This document shows, piece after piece, positions 26,660 to 33,910 of a stretch of DNA of 64,000 nucleotides (positions are counted from its first letter, which is position 1; the number at the start of each line of letters is the position of its first letter). The translations under genes were made by a program, and so were the position numbers. This DNA is from Tubulanus polymorphus. Taxonomy: Eukaryota; Nemertea; Palaeonemertea; Tubulaniformes; Tubulanidae. The notes under the pieces are model-generated. The model was given only the letters and a program-made list of their open reading frames with translations, was not told where the DNA came from and searched no databases. Location of the stretch: positions 8,990,501 to 9,054,500 of the forward strand of contig NC_134035.1 in NCBI RefSeq assembly GCF_964204645.1. The letters are read 5' to 3'.

Positions 26660-27085
26660 TTTATTCTATTTGATCCAAGTTCTGTTTGTTTTGTTCATAA
26701 GACTGGTTGATAAAAGAGTCTCTCTTTTACGTTGTTTGTCTTGTTACAATGTTGAGATTTCCTATTTGTTAAATAGTTGGTAATTTTGTAAGTAATTTCA
26801 TTGTGATATTGATATATTTAGATAATATAAATAAAAGCCTATTTACCATAATTTACTGTTGTTTTTTTAGTTTTGTAGCTCTGATGCTTAATAATGAATT
26901 GGGATCATTTCAAACTGGGAGATCTCTGAACGGTATCGTATATGATTGTTGGGTATTAGTTAAATGAATTAGTTCGGCTGAAAATGACGCCAAAGGAGCC
27001 GAAGAAACGACTGTCAAACAATACCGCGTAATAAGGTTGCAGTACCGTATGATCCCCTAGCGGAATTTCAGTGAACTAATGTATT
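26660..27085 (+). repeat. Direct duplicate, copy 1 (partner 32900-33315)
   Basis: Shared words, in the same order, include 'gttttgttcataaga', 'tcttttacgttgtttg', 'gaattgggatcatttc', 'aaacgactgtcaaacaat' and 'tcccctagcggaattt'. This copy covers the end of the PLEKHA-like 3' UTR and its polyadenylation signal. It could be a local duplication or an undescribed dispersed repeat. Confidence 0.65.
26830..26835 (+). terminator. AATAAA polyadenylation signal (PLEKHA-like)
   Basis: This canonical hexamer lies about 1.0 kb after the TGA at 25832-25834, in AT-rich sequence, and fits a long 3' UTR. Cleavage would fall near 26850. Confidence 0.5.
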
Positions 27086-28306
27086 GCGGGGTAGCGAAAC
27101 CCGAGAAAAACTGAACATCACCGCAAATATAATAAAGATCATCGTTTATTTGAATTTACAAATTACAATTCGCGATCTAGTTCTCCAGTTTTCAGTTCAG
27201 CTTGACACTAAGAGTTGAGATTAAAGTTGATTCAATGCTTTGACCCTAGAGACAATTTAAACCCGAGAACTGCGTAATTATCCTTACTGTGTAGCTTTAG
27301 TTTAAATACAGTTCTACGAACTCACCGAGGAAAAAGTTCCGTCCAAAACTGTTCAATGTCAAAACACTGAAGCAAAAAAAGCGAGGCGTCGAGCAAAAAA
27401 CTGTTTCTTTCTTGGGAATTTAAATTAGTACGGAAAAGGACTTTTGTATGGTGGCTGATTGGGGCCAAACTAAAAAATTTTTCTGTACGGCTAAAGCACC
27501 AATACCAATTTTTCACATTGGCCCGTTTTTTTTGTTTTCTCGCGCGAGAATTCAAAACTTTTGGTTTTCTCGCGCGAGAAAACTAAACATTTTGGTTTGA
27601 AAAAATGTTTCTGACTGGCAAGAAACTGGACAAAAATTTTTGTGAAAAATTTTTTATCGGTGCTTTAGCCGTACAGAAAATTCTTTTAGTATGGCCCGAA
27701 TCAGCCACCATATGATACAACCTATACAATATGAAATCTAAATCCATATCAAATCTATATACATTGAAACATTAGACACACTGAAATAAACCAAACACAT
27801 CAAACAAAGACAAAAAAAATTCAGCACCACGCATAAAGACAAAAAAGATTCAATCGCGAACAGTCATGTCGACGTCACGAATGTTGTTCATCAATCGCGG
27901 TTTAGCGCCGGCAGCGAAATGAAAATATTGAAATACTTGGAAAAAAGGACAATGATTAAAGTCGGATTTCGTTGATGGATTTTCTGTGTTATGGCGCTGA
28001 TTTTTCACTGTCATTCGAGTCAACTTTATTGATGTCTATGAAATTGCATTCAGCGTATCATAGACCGCATCATATTGATAATCACTATTCACAAGCGTCA
28101 ATTAGCATATGAGAGCTATTAATGAAATAACTTTTGAAAAAATAATTCATATCTCCGGGAACCGCTGCGAGAGTCGTTGTCGTTTTGAATTTTATTTCGA
28201 CGAAGTTATAAGCAACCAAGGTTAAAAGGAGTAAAAAGAGAGAAGGGTATAAAGACAAAGAAAGGGAGGCTGGAAATATAAAATGATTTCACCAGCTTTT
28301 GCTCAA
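27086..28306. other. Intergenic between PLEKHA-like and CARNS1-like
   Basis: No gene is seen. It holds a foldback element (27447-27715) and otherwise AT-rich sequence. Confidence 0.5.
27447..27715. mobile_element. Foldback element, ATGGTGGCTGATT termini
   Basis: It starts ATGGTGGCTGATTGGGGCC and ends 'cgaatcagccaccat'. Inner inverted pairs are 'ctgtacggctaaagcacc' / 'ggtgctttagccgtacag', and two 'ctcgcgcgagaa' dyads sit at the centre. There is no coding capacity. Confidence 0.7.
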
Positions 28307-31300
28307 TCACGTATATACTATTGGAAAGTCAGTAAACTTTTTAACGTCGTATTCTTTGTTTGAGATTCCAAACCGTTCACAAAGTTCCAACAATGTTTCT
28401 TTCGCTTCTTCTAAATTATCAGTTTTAACGCCTAAATGACAAATCGGTCTTTCTGTATCAGTATCGACAACATCATCAGTTGTACAGGATTGAATTTGGA
28501 TGAACTGAATTTCACCAGATTTGTACAATTCATTGATTTCATCTATTCGATTCCAAATATGAGCGTGAACTGATTGTAAACAAATAACACCTACAAGTTG
28601 TCCACTAGGGGTAGGTTTGTAGATGTGAGGCTTCACTGCGCAGGCGCACACGAACACACATCTCAGTAAATCAACTCTGTAACATTCCTTTATCCAATTC
28701 CACACGTAAAACCCTCCCATTCGAGCATTTATTTCGATCAGTTTCGGACCCATCGATGTCATTACAATGTCGACATTAAAAACACCACTAGTCAAACCTA
28801 TTGTCGAACAACATTGATAAGCAGCGGAGATCATCTGTGTTATCTTATCTGGAGGTAAGCATGATGGCATCGTAACCCCAGTTCCCGTTAGACACCCTTC
28901 CCTAGTTGGACCGAAGTCAGACAGAAACGCGGCGATCAACTGACGCTTGAACATGACTATATCAACTCCATGTCGAGGCCCTTCTAGAAACGGCATCATC
29001 ATCATACTAGTTCCAAAACTTATCCCAAGTCCAGGTAGATCATCTTCTGAGCTCAGTTTCTTTTGTACAAGATTGAAATAAGTTTTACATTCGTTTTTAT
29101 TTTGAACGCGTTTAGCTCCTACTGAAGCTGCTCCGAATTCACGTTTGATGATGTCACGTTCGGTTTCTATTTCGACGCTTTTTTCAGCGTAAATTCGCGC
29201 TTGAGGAAAATGTTTATATTCGCTTCGACTTTGGAAAAGAGTTTTTTGTGTCGATGATTTTTGCTTAGCGATTCTACAACCATTAAGACCGGAACCGTTC
29301 AGAGATAATAACTCACAAATGTGAGCGCACAAACGAATGCAATCTTCCCAAATTGTACAACAACCATCTATTTTAAGACGACAATTAGCGAGTATTTTGC
29401 TGATATTGATGGCGTGTTGCTCGTCTCGAGTGTGATCCGTAAAGTCATAATCGATAAATTGGGTTACATCTGGAATGTCACGTGACTTGCGGTCAACAAG
29501 AATGATCTAAAACATAGAAGGTACCAGTGTATATGAATCCATTAATGAAGGCATTTATACTAGAAAACCTCTTTTAACATGTATTATTTGTGGGTCTTCT
29601 TTTACCTTCAAATTGTCTTGTTTAGCAGTAGCCCACATGAATGCTTTACTTGGACCTCCTTTCGCTATCACAACTATCACTTTACCCCACATCGTATATC
29701 GTTGAGATCTTTCACACATCCTCTCAACCAATGGAATCACTGATGTTCCTGGACTTCAGGTCGGTAGATGCACGTAATGGATGGCTGACCAAACTCTTTA
29801 AACAGCTTTTAACCCAGATCCCGATAGGACAGTAGCGACCATCGCGTTTTACCAAGATGAAGTCAGCAGCTACAAAAACAATGCACAAAACAAACCTTTG
29901 TCTAAATGAAGTAGGACTGATTTACATACACATATAATAAAATGGCTTTCGTGTTTCTTACCTATAAAATCTGTTTGTGTTTTGCCATTTTCATCATTAT
30001 TTTCCCGTTTAATTATCTCTCGTAGCAAGTTTTCCGAATCGTTTTTCAGTTGTTTCTTAATTCTATCTATTTCGGATGTTTCTACACCCCACTGTAGTAG
30101 AGTCGTTTCTATCGACTGCGCTGTTGTATTATCGCTGGTGATTGGCTCGTTTATGCGACCGACTCTACATATGAAACCCGTGATGAATACGAATATTTTA
30201 TACGAATGTCATGATTGGTTGATCACAGCGCCCTCTATATGCGATAACTCGAATTTGGAAAGATAGATTATTTACTCCATCAGCCGCTGAAAGGAATTTC
30301 ATTTATTGAACTTCTAAAAGCTTATAATCCATAAATCATTGACGTGTTTATTCGACATACCTGTTGGACCTGGTTGATGGAATCGCTCTATGAATACATA
30401 ATCTCCCGGCTCAGACCGCGACAGTAAAGTGACAGTCTTGTTACAGATATTCTCCTGATCAGAATCACTATGGATAGAAGCTTGTTCCTTGTGACCCGTT
30501 GCTATTCTGAATTTTCTGACCGAAATCTTCAGAAAAATTCAGAACAATCTCCTATAGAATTCACCAATACATCGATAAATGTAAAACGTTAGATACGACA
30601 GTAATTACCTTGTCATTCGAGGAATCGAGATGTTGCAGAAATCTTCGTATATTTTCACTAACCACATTCTTCAAGTCAGTTTTTATATCTATTTCGTGTA
30701 TCTCTACACAAACATCTCCCGGTATATCGTATCTATGAGGTACGTAGTTACACAATACTAATGTTTCAGGGCAACTAATTCCTGCTTTACACATTAATAC
30801 GGAAGCGATAAGGGGCCTCGAGATGTCGCGTTCCAACTCGTCAAGTCGTCATATTTATGTCGACATATCGCGATATATCGCGTCAAGTCGACATGAATAT
30901 GTCGTCATATCGTGACGTTTTCACGACAAATTTCGCTTTCTCGACCACTTTCCTCGCGACAAGTCGACATATTCACGACGACTTGAAACTCAGTCGTCAT
31001 ATTACTGGTGTCCTCATCTTACATTTAGACGTGTCTTTAAATGACGGTTTGTCCCGTGGAAAATGGGCGAAAAAGCGAAATTTGTCGTGAAAACGTCACG
31101 ATATGTCGACATATTCATGTCGACTTGACGCGATATATCGCGATATGTCGACATAAATATAGCGACTTGTCGAGTTGGAACGCGACATCTCGAGGCCCCT
31201 TATCGCTTCCGTACCTACTGGCCAAATTTGACCTGGGTCAAAACGCTCGTGCTTGAATCGGGTGAATGAAATGAGTTAGGAAACATTTGTGGATGCAGAA

Positions 31301-31545
31301 TCAAAATTAGAACTTCAACGCCGGCATTTCTAACATTATCCAAAACGTGTGCATTTCCGTTAATGTATTTGGAGGATTCGAAAATAACTACATGTATTAC
31401 TTACGTGACTATGAATGTATACATAAATAGATTTCCAGAATGAATAGATAAGGCAATTTGGTTTTGATCGCATTCGAATAGACGAATTATATTCTGGAGT
31501 TCACTGCACAATGTAGTTTCATTAAGTGGATGCGGCTGCGCTTGC
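28307..31545 (-). pseudogene. CARNS1: Carnosine synthase-like locus, probably decayed
   Basis: CARNS1 is an ATP-grasp ligase joining beta-alanine (or GABA) to L-histidine in the cytosol. Visible coding blocks: about 31545-30609 (split by a transposon), 30361-30526, 29962-30286, 29606-29869, 28307-29506; splice sites are kept, so it is not a retrocopy. Family landmarks: CKAGISCPETLVL, TGFICRVGRINEP, PLVERMCERSQRY, KGGPSKAFMWATAKQ, CRIAKQKSSTQKTLF, REFGAASVGAKRV, GPTREGCLTGTG, GVFNVDIVM, LIEINARMGGFYVWNW. Lesions in the upstream blocks: TAA at 31401-31403, TAG at 31215-31217, a 416-bp insertion (30798-31213), a 13-bp tandem duplication near 30187-30207 that shifts frame, and a frameshift near 29749-29758. 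The last exon is open for 399 codons. The N-terminal part was not found. Calling error or unusual splicing could mimic some lesions, but not all. Confidence 0.75.
30798..31213. mobile_element. Foldback transposon inside CARNS1-like exon
   Basis: The termini are TACGGAAGCGATAAGGGGCC and its inverse, with TA at each outer edge, as expected for TA target duplication. The arms are about 145 bp and nearly identical, rich in 'gtcgacat' and 'cgcgatatatcgcg' dyads. The small open frames in it are by-products of the palindrome. Confidence 0.8.
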
Positions 31546-32579
31546 GCTTAAAGACAATCGTTGAAAAAATGTCTCATTCTGTTGTAAATACGACGATACA
31601 ATATGAACCTGTCTACTGGCCGGCACAAATCGAAAATGCGTTTATAGCTGATGTAAAGAATATGAGAGCTACTCAATACTGGTTAACACTGCTAGTTCTA
31701 CCCGCTGTAGTCGTCATTGGTATTTTCGGCAATTCGATGACACTGTTTATGATGCAGATGAAGCTGCGGACTCGAACCTATTCGGTTTATTTCTCCGTAA
31801 TCGCCGTCACCGATTCGGTCATACTCGTAGCCAGATTTCTATTTTGGGTGAACTTTTTGTTCAGGTGTTTAGGACGAGATATCGTGATCACGTTCCGCAG
31901 CACGTTAGCGTGCATCGCTATCAACAATTTCATGCATATCTTCCAGAATATGTCATCTTGGTTTATCGTAGTTGTGTCCGTGGAGCGTTTGGCCTGCGTA
32001 TCACACCCGTTCGTCACCAGACGATTAAACCGAGTTAAAACGGCCCGAGTCATCGCTGTCTTTGTAATTCTGCTATGCATGCCTTCGGGGTTTATACTCT
32101 ATTTCACCGTCCGATATCATGTAACACAAATGAGATGCGTATACATGAATTATGATAATATGATTTATAAATTAAAGATTGCGTTTTCCTTCACTGTTTT
32201 CTTCATACCGGCTATTATCATCTTCATGGCGAACTTTTTACTGTTGACCGTTCTTTATTTTAGACGTTTCAACGGGCGCCGAAGTGAACGGGCAGAAAAG
32301 TCCGATTCTAAGACGAACAGAGTCGTCCAAATGACTCTAGTCGTGACATTTTCATTTCTGGTATTATGCGCGCCCCATTGGATTTTCCAGACCATAGAAG
32401 CATACGAATCAGATATACCGATCGTCAAGGTTTTAGATGACTTGTTAACTTTGCTTTACGTCACTAATTACGGCATCAACTTTTTTCTCTATGTAATTAC
32501 CGGTGTCGAAATAAGGAACGAGCTTCATAAAATTATCCTCTTTTGTTTTTGTTCAAGGCGGAATAAGGACTCTCAATAG
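31530..32579 (+). CDS. Rhodopsin-class GPCR, peptide-receptor-like, one exon
   Basis: This intronless frame encodes 349 residues with seven hydrophobic segments: YWLTLLVLPAVVVIGIFGNS (TM1), FSVIAVTDSVILVARFLFWV (TM2), SWFIVVVSVERL (TM3 end), ARVIAVFVILLCMPSGFILY (TM4), FTVFFIPAIIIFMANFLLL (TM5), LVVTFSFLVLCAPHWIF (TM6), YVTNYGINFFLYVITG (TM7). TM1 has GN. The DRY motif is replaced by VERL, CWxP by CAPHW, and NPxxY by a NYGINFFLY context, a pattern seen in invertebrate orphan/neuropeptide receptors. Cysteines before TM3 and in loop 2 could form the usual disulfide. N-terminal NTT is a likely glycosylation site. The second ATG (31569, MSHSVVNTT) is a plausible true start because the first 13 residues are basic and overlap the CARNS1-like exon on the other strand. 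The ligand is unknown. Confidence 0.85.
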   Translation: MRLRLRLKTIVEKMSHSVVNTTIQYEPVYWPAQIENAFIADVKNMRATQYWLTLLVLPAVVVIGIFGNSMTLFMMQMKLRTRTYSVYFSVIAVTDSVILVARFLFWVNFLFRCLGRDIVITFRSTLACIAINNFMHIFQNMSSWFIVVVSVERLACVSHPFVTRRLNRVKTARVIAVFVILLCMPSGFILYFTVRYHVTQMRCVYMNYDNMIYKLKIAFSFTVFFIPAIIIFMANFLLLTVLYFRRFNGRRSERAEKSDSKTNRVVQMTLVVTFSFLVLCAPHWIFQTIEAYESDIPIVKVLDDLLTLLYVTNYGINFFLYVITGVEIRNELHKIILFCFCSRRNKDSQ

Positions 32580-33910
32580 GAGGGAAGGGGGTCGAGGAGG
32601 AAGGAACCCATATCTGTTAATTCATGTTTATCCATCATAAAATCATTGGTCTATCTTTATTTCGGGACTCGTGTCTTGAAAAATTATTATCTTAAAATTA
32701 CATTTGAAAGCAGAAGAAGGCAATTAGATCAAATACTTAAGAAAAAACAATGATCTTAAAACCACTTTCGAAAGCAATAGAGACTAATGGTACGATTGAG
32801 TAACGTCCGCCCAAATCGGATCTTTTGGCACTGCAAAAATGTGTCCTACTTGACCCCGTATCCGAGTTCAAACTCTCTCCTGAAATTGATTACTAGAATT
32901 GATTGTTTTAGTTGATCAAGTTCTGTGTGTTTTGTTCATAAGAATAGTTGATGAAAAATCTTCTCTTTTACGTTGTTTGGGATTCTCCATATGTACCGGG
33001 GTCGTAGATAAAAAAAGCTGCAGCTTTTATTTATCTACACCCCGGCATTTTTTGTAATGATATTTTAGCGCTGATGCTAATGATGAATTGGGATCATTTC
33101 GAACTGGGAGACCTCTGAACAGAATCATACAGATTCGTAAATTTGTTCTACAGAAGGGGCGTTTAGAAACGACTGTCAAACAATTAGTTAGACTGGTTAC
33201 CGGTGTCTACCTTCAATCATTACGACAGGCAACCAGTCTATCAGTGGTGCTTCTACTTGAAACTCCGTAGGTGGCAGCACTTTTTGGTCCCCTAGCGGAA
33301 TTTTTCCAAACTATTCTGAAGTTACTCCACGCCCGTAGATACTGGTCTATTTTGTACCGTTGAAAAAGCCGCCATTTTGTATCGTTTTGTATTGCTACGC
33401 TAATTAGTTTTCACATTCTCCGCTCACTGGCAGCACCTTACGGCAGTAAGGGGAGTGAGTTATAAAACGGTTTGATAGGACGCACCGACCCTTTCAGGTA
33501 TTTGCCTAATACCGACTTTCTGAGAGTTTTGGAGACAGTAAATGATTCGCATCATTGCGAGTAAACTTATACCAAAAAGGGTAAGCGCTAAATACAAAAA
33601 TTCTGCTGATCTAGGCCGCCTATAGTCTGAATACCAGTCGTCGTTACCGGTCCCAAGTCGGAACCTACGCAACGACGTTGTTTGTTGAACAACGTCTGCA
33701 GCTACTAGGTACTAGACTATCAGTCTGATTACTCCAAAATAAGGCCCACCAAGACTCAAGAGAAGACCAAGTCGGAATCTTGAACACGTTGATTGGCATC
33801 GTATAAATCGCATGGCTTTCCTTCTCGGTGTCGTTCTTAAATTTGTCTTATTTTTTACAAAGTGACTATATTTTTTACAGCAAATTGCATTTAAAAATAA
33901 GTACATTTTT
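32580..33910. other. Intergenic, repeat content only
   Basis: It contains the second copy of the 26660-27085 segment and, within it, a small inverted repeat at about 32996-33050 ('ccggggtcgtagata' / 'tatctacaccccgg'). No gene is supported. Confidence 0.5.
32900..33315 (+). repeat. Direct duplicate, copy 2 (partner 26660-27085)
   Basis: It has the same ordered words as copy 1, with an extra inverted repeat near 32996-33050 and extra sequence near 33183-33280 not seen in copy 1. The two copies bracket the CARNS1-like locus and the GPCR in direct orientation. Confidence 0.65.

Follow-up and report, generated by a model that had tools for sequence, protein, structure and literature searches.

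A probable late-dying, intron-retaining CARNS1-like pseudogene with a foldback junction at its front in Tubulanus polymorphus

The CARNS1-like gene copy found in the stretch of Tubulanus polymorphus DNA analysed here (the window: 64,000 nucleotides, C11:8990501-9054500) is a remnant, and not a working member of its family. We consider it very probable that it represents a duplicated (unprocessed), intron-retaining pseudogene, which died late and lost its front at a foldback junction: introns are kept, disabling lesions are present and a functional-looking paralogue exists elsewhere in the genome. On the minus strand, positions 30797-28307 preserve the end of exon 1, followed by exons 2-5, of a gene for a CARNS1-like ATP-grasp ligase (Table 1), arranged according to a five-exon model that was built by comparing the window with the copies located on C2 and C4. 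The preliminary description of this DNA had already reported that the introns were kept, and all four of them indeed have GT-AG ends; their retention indicates that the copy arose at the DNA level and not through RNA, and the possibility of a processed pseudogene (i.e. a retrocopy) was rejected on this ground. The main lesion is the loss of the start codon and of the first ~187 N-terminal codons, presumably accompanied by that of the promoter, which would also have disappeared at the foldback. With these codons missing and its frame broken, the copy falls short of a length of ~800-950 aa with a long N-terminal region.

The absence of the front was apparent in several comparisons. Homology to both C2 copies (blastn) begins at 30797, immediately adjacent to the foldback, and a genome search with exon 1 recovered from the window residues 175-250 only. 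When exon 1 of five paralogues was compared (tblastn) with positions 31216-31600 and with the foldback, nothing meaningful was found, and the control stretch (30609-30797) was detected in the same comparison with E = 4e-43. Furthermore, the genome search found no orphan exon 1, the missing 187 codons being present only in the six other copies of the family. On the far side of the foldback the DNA belongs to a neighbour: positions 31327-32677 are 77% identical to a stretch of C7 that contains a GPCR paralogue gene together with its 5' flank. Two in-frame stops, which the preliminary description had listed as lesions, are present as letters but fall outside the gene, since TAA (31401-31403) is situated in the 5' flank of the GPCR gene and TAG (31215-31217) falls within the last bases before the foldback. 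The GPCR gene of the window consists of a single exon and has relatives on C7, C8, C10, C4 and C2. We also observed that the block formed by this gene and the remnant is flanked by two short direct repeats (26661-26940 and 32903-33129; 85-87% identical, ~6.2 kb apart), which were listed only here in genome searches.

Table 1. Features of the CARNS1-like remnant and of the adjoining DNA (positions within the window)
Feature	Position	Strand	Basis or remark
Second inverted-repeat element, unrelated to the foldback, abutting the 3' end	27447..27712	.	nearest copy 91% identical
3' UTR/flank common to the C2:271140 copy	27713..28306	-	homology stops at 27713
Exon 5, C-terminal ATP-grasp module, 399 codons open	28307..29506	-	open reading frame and Pfam
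Exon 4 with 1-bp insertion	29606..29869	-	264 bp vs 263 bp in three paralogues
Exon 3 with net 28-bp insertion	29962..30286	-	325 bp vs 297 bp in each of three paralogues
Exon 2, length equal to C2 copies	30361..30526	-	paralogue comparison
Exon 1 tail (63 codons, in frame)	30609..30797	-	tblastn 94-97% to C2 copies; blastn homology starts at 30797
Foldback element TACGGAAGCG...CGCTTCCGTA, 416 bp	30798..31213	.	self-complementary over full length
Rhodopsin-type GPCR gene, neighbour outside the remnant	31571..32579	+	Pfam 7tm_1

The foldback belongs to a high-copy family (383 first-look candidates and 164 scored matches, both strands counted) with Foldback/MITE-like properties, namely a full-length inverted repeat, many copies and a target-site duplication of fixed length; this family may be IS3EU-like. 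Its members, which carry the terminal TACGGAAGCG and a 6-bp target-site duplication, are often nested or clustered. Such a duplication (with at most 1 mismatch) was present in 21 of the 27 other full copies that were read, for a chance rate of 0.5% per copy. The window copy has none, as it is bordered by AGTAGG on one side and by TTAATG on the gene side, the latter hexamer being the one that the C2 copies have at the same place of their exon 1. The lack of a target-site duplication points to a rearrangement junction. The 416-bp foldback insertion put forward earlier is real as an element, but it forms the 5' edge of the remnant and does not lie inside an otherwise present exon; a simple insertion within such an exon was rejected, because there is neither an exon 1 on the far side nor a target-site duplication. 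Mismatched or exchanged target-site duplications are a signature of ectopic recombination in transposon-mediated Drosophila inversions (PMC3355041), and the junction described here resembles those of the Drosophila foldback transposon Galileo (PMC3355041) in having a repeat copy at the breakpoint and mismatched duplications. It differs in that a single junction is seen (the reciprocal one was not found) and in that the element belongs to another family (with a 6-bp duplication). Reciprocal junction patterns were absent from the genome (exact match only) in a search that recovered the real junction as positive control, and an inversion by recombination between foldbacks is therefore not favoured; this absence, together with that of an orphan exon 1, leads us to prefer a deletion over an inversion. 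Where the duplicated segment ends on its 3' side, the second inverted-repeat element has flanks that an ordinary TA-flanked insertion could explain, and thus no rearrangement is claimed there.

The history that we propose would have begun with the duplication of an intact gene, after which the duplicate would have spent a period under purifying selection. A foldback would then have used TTAATG in exon 1 as its target, and its recombination with a second foldback, located beside the GPCR gene, would have deleted the DNA between the two, and with it the promoter and the first part of exon 1; we infer both this second copy and the deletion. The small indels would have been acquired before or after the truncation.

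Additional lesions are found downstream of the junction. The exon 3 insertion (~30187-30212) shifts the frame and brings in a TAA at 30200; it had been presented as a 13-bp tandem duplication, and although the frameshift holds, the true size is a net 28 bp that includes an imperfect 13-bp repeat. One extra base at 29754/29755 in exon 4 accounts for the frameshift that had been placed near 29749-29758, and neither insertion occurs in the copies on C2 and C4. To these we add the in-frame loss of 30 bp from exon 5 (between 29153 and 29152), which none of the six paralogues shares and which takes away ten residues immediately ahead of the ATP-binding strand (IIKREFG), aligned with the lysine-bearing strand of the ligase BacD. 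Exon 5 also shows a small change at its C-terminus, and radical substitutions (G>W, R>W and C>Y) are private to the window copy. As originally noted, the final 399-codon block is intact in frame, and it passes the Pfam cut-offs for ATP-grasp_3 (32.1 bits, cut-off 23.2) and ATPgrasp_Ter (31.4 bits, cut-off 29.1). Of the first list of lesions the frameshifts in exons 3 and 4 are therefore retained, the two stops (neighbouring DNA) are withdrawn, and the loss of ~187 codons had been missed.

The whole-genome search for another CARNS1-like copy that had been suggested at the outset was run over 267.8 Mb and yielded six others. With the 399-codon block we obtained seven long matches (the window copy included), whose identity to exon 5 of the window amounts to 93% and 90% on C2, 73% on C4, 61% on C8, 61% on C10 and 54% on C6; the exon 1 search gave six full copies at matching places (C2 twice, C4, C6, C8 and C10). 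First and last exons are open in all six, and full coding frames (~900 aa) were assembled for both C2 copies and the C4 one, those on C6, C8 and C10 being represented by their open first and last exons. Given these copies, the view that the animal may lack the dipeptide pathway is refuted and this earlier claim of pathway loss is corrected, the alternative that had been offered with it (a dying duplicate) being borne out in the form of a dead copy. The closest relatives of the window copy are the two C2 copies, which form an inverted pair (C2:268501-284500) with ~1.5% difference in introns 1, 3 and 4 and sharp divergence in intron 2, the 3' UTR and the active-site tract, a mosaic that is suggestive of gene conversion. 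A decayed fragment of the family, with several stops, was observed ~16 kb from the C4 gene (C4:21685530-21685844).

CARNS1 is the likely name of the family, judging by the motifs SDNGPTR and EIN(A/P)RMGGFY of its intact members, presumably shared with vertebrate CARNS1; the libraries searched gave no CARNS1 match. Profile matches of the ATP-grasp ligase domain were obtained with BacD (3VMM/3WNZ, E 5e-14) and BL00235 (3VOT, E 1e-11), which, unlike the present family, are distant single-module bacterial L-amino-acid ligases of 425-474 aa. Carnosine synthase (CARNS1/ATPGD1) is known from vertebrates and has been reported also in the giant clam (PMC11591149). The T. polymorphus genes share with it a C-terminal ATP-grasp module, the intact paralogues being ~900 aa long; they differ in forming a multi-copy family, and the window copy differs further in being frameshifted and devoid of its front. 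Our literature searches found no account of an expansion of the CARNS1-like family in invertebrates.

Against the reading of the window copy as a pseudogene stand its open exon 5 and the constraint that the substitutions of this exon still seem to show, both unexpected in a long-dead gene. The substitutions unique to the window copy comprise 34 non-synonymous and 29 synonymous changes (omega 0.32-0.47 by method), and neutrality is rejected for them (p = 0.00003-0.002). Once polarised with the C4 copy, 24 non-synonymous and 14 synonymous changes are assigned to the window branch, with an omega of 0.53 (p = 0.048 versus neutral) that is not different from that of the intact copies (p = 0.53). 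The foldback departs from its family consensus at 9 of 416 positions (2.2%), as compared to 20 of 258 intron sites unique to the window copy (7.8%, not polarised by an outgroup; Fisher p = 0.0007). These observations suggest a late truncation, which came after the gene (or else its lost parent) had spent much of its history intact; the timing is rough, since gene conversion involving the C2 copies and the window copy blurs their ancestry.

A lost parent would explain the constrained substitutions equally well if they were its own, i.e. if a 3.1-kb fragment (30797-27713) of a third intact, now lost gene had been copied between two repeats and had never worked at its new location, which would still make it a pseudogene. 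The ends of homology coincide with repeat elements at both sides, as this scenario would require, but the TTAATG flank on the gene side is in keeping with a foldback insertion into an exon 1 of full length and the assembly holds no such parent, and we regard such an origin as unlikely. The C-terminal half could also form a working short gene, running from an exon 4 methionine past the frameshift through exon 5 and encoding a stand-alone ATP-grasp ligase of ~436 aa, similar in size to BacD and BL00235. Its frame stays open across the junction of exons 4 and 5, where the splice sites are good, and on the window branch exon 5 has an omega of 0.35 (p = 0.014 taken alone) versus ~1.0 in exons 1-4; this difference falls short of significance (Fisher p = 0.31) and the branch includes time before the truncation. 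As the short gene would moreover be without a known promoter and would lack the ten residues that precede the ATP-binding strand, besides carrying the private G>W, R>W and C>Y, we judge it very unlikely, and it seems to us just as poorly probable, if not slightly more so, that exons 4-5 persist under selection as such a ligase after the N-terminal part was lost at the foldback junction. That the lesions are assembly or sequencing errors in an intact gene is scarcely conceivable: a single assembly stands behind the sequence, but the missing 187 codons occur nowhere except in the six other copies, and the indels of 28, 30 and 1 bp lie outside long homopolymers.

The late-dying duplicate that we favour carries little weight as a single case, for it is an ordinary recent pseudogene in a multi-copy family; spare copies in such families often die, and breakpoints that carry repeats are a familiar finding. 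Its junction, devoid of a target-site duplication, offers a clean and checkable case of repeat-associated gene truncation, and birth and death are documented in the CARNS1-like family by at least six copies whose two ends are open, alongside two decayed ones.

The residues around the ATP-grasp site, described initially as changed, need a more qualified reading. EGPRHGVDI and SDFGPT do differ from most paralogues (those on C4, C6, C8 and C10 retain EH, DNG and VE), but they are wholly or partly common to the intact C2 copies, and EINARMGG is the normal family sequence. In C2:280751, which is intact, the first motif reads EGSRHGVDI, so that one residue is window-only and the replacement of EHDVD by RHGVDI is common to both; the second reads SDLGPT in both C2 copies (family form SDNGPT), leaving L-to-F as the only window-specific change. 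At the position for which the alignment shows an acidic residue in the bacterial ligases, presumably engaged in metal binding, Asp is found in the window copy and C2:280751, and Gly in C2:271140. Active-site decay as an event of the window copy was thus mostly rejected, and the sharing of these changes with the C2 copies implies that the active site of this clade was unusual before the window copy broke. In C2:271140, exon 5 has an intact frame with SSSVGF in place of FNVEF and EINARMAG in place of EINARMGG, and, as far as its sequence can tell, the product may be catalytically dead or altered.
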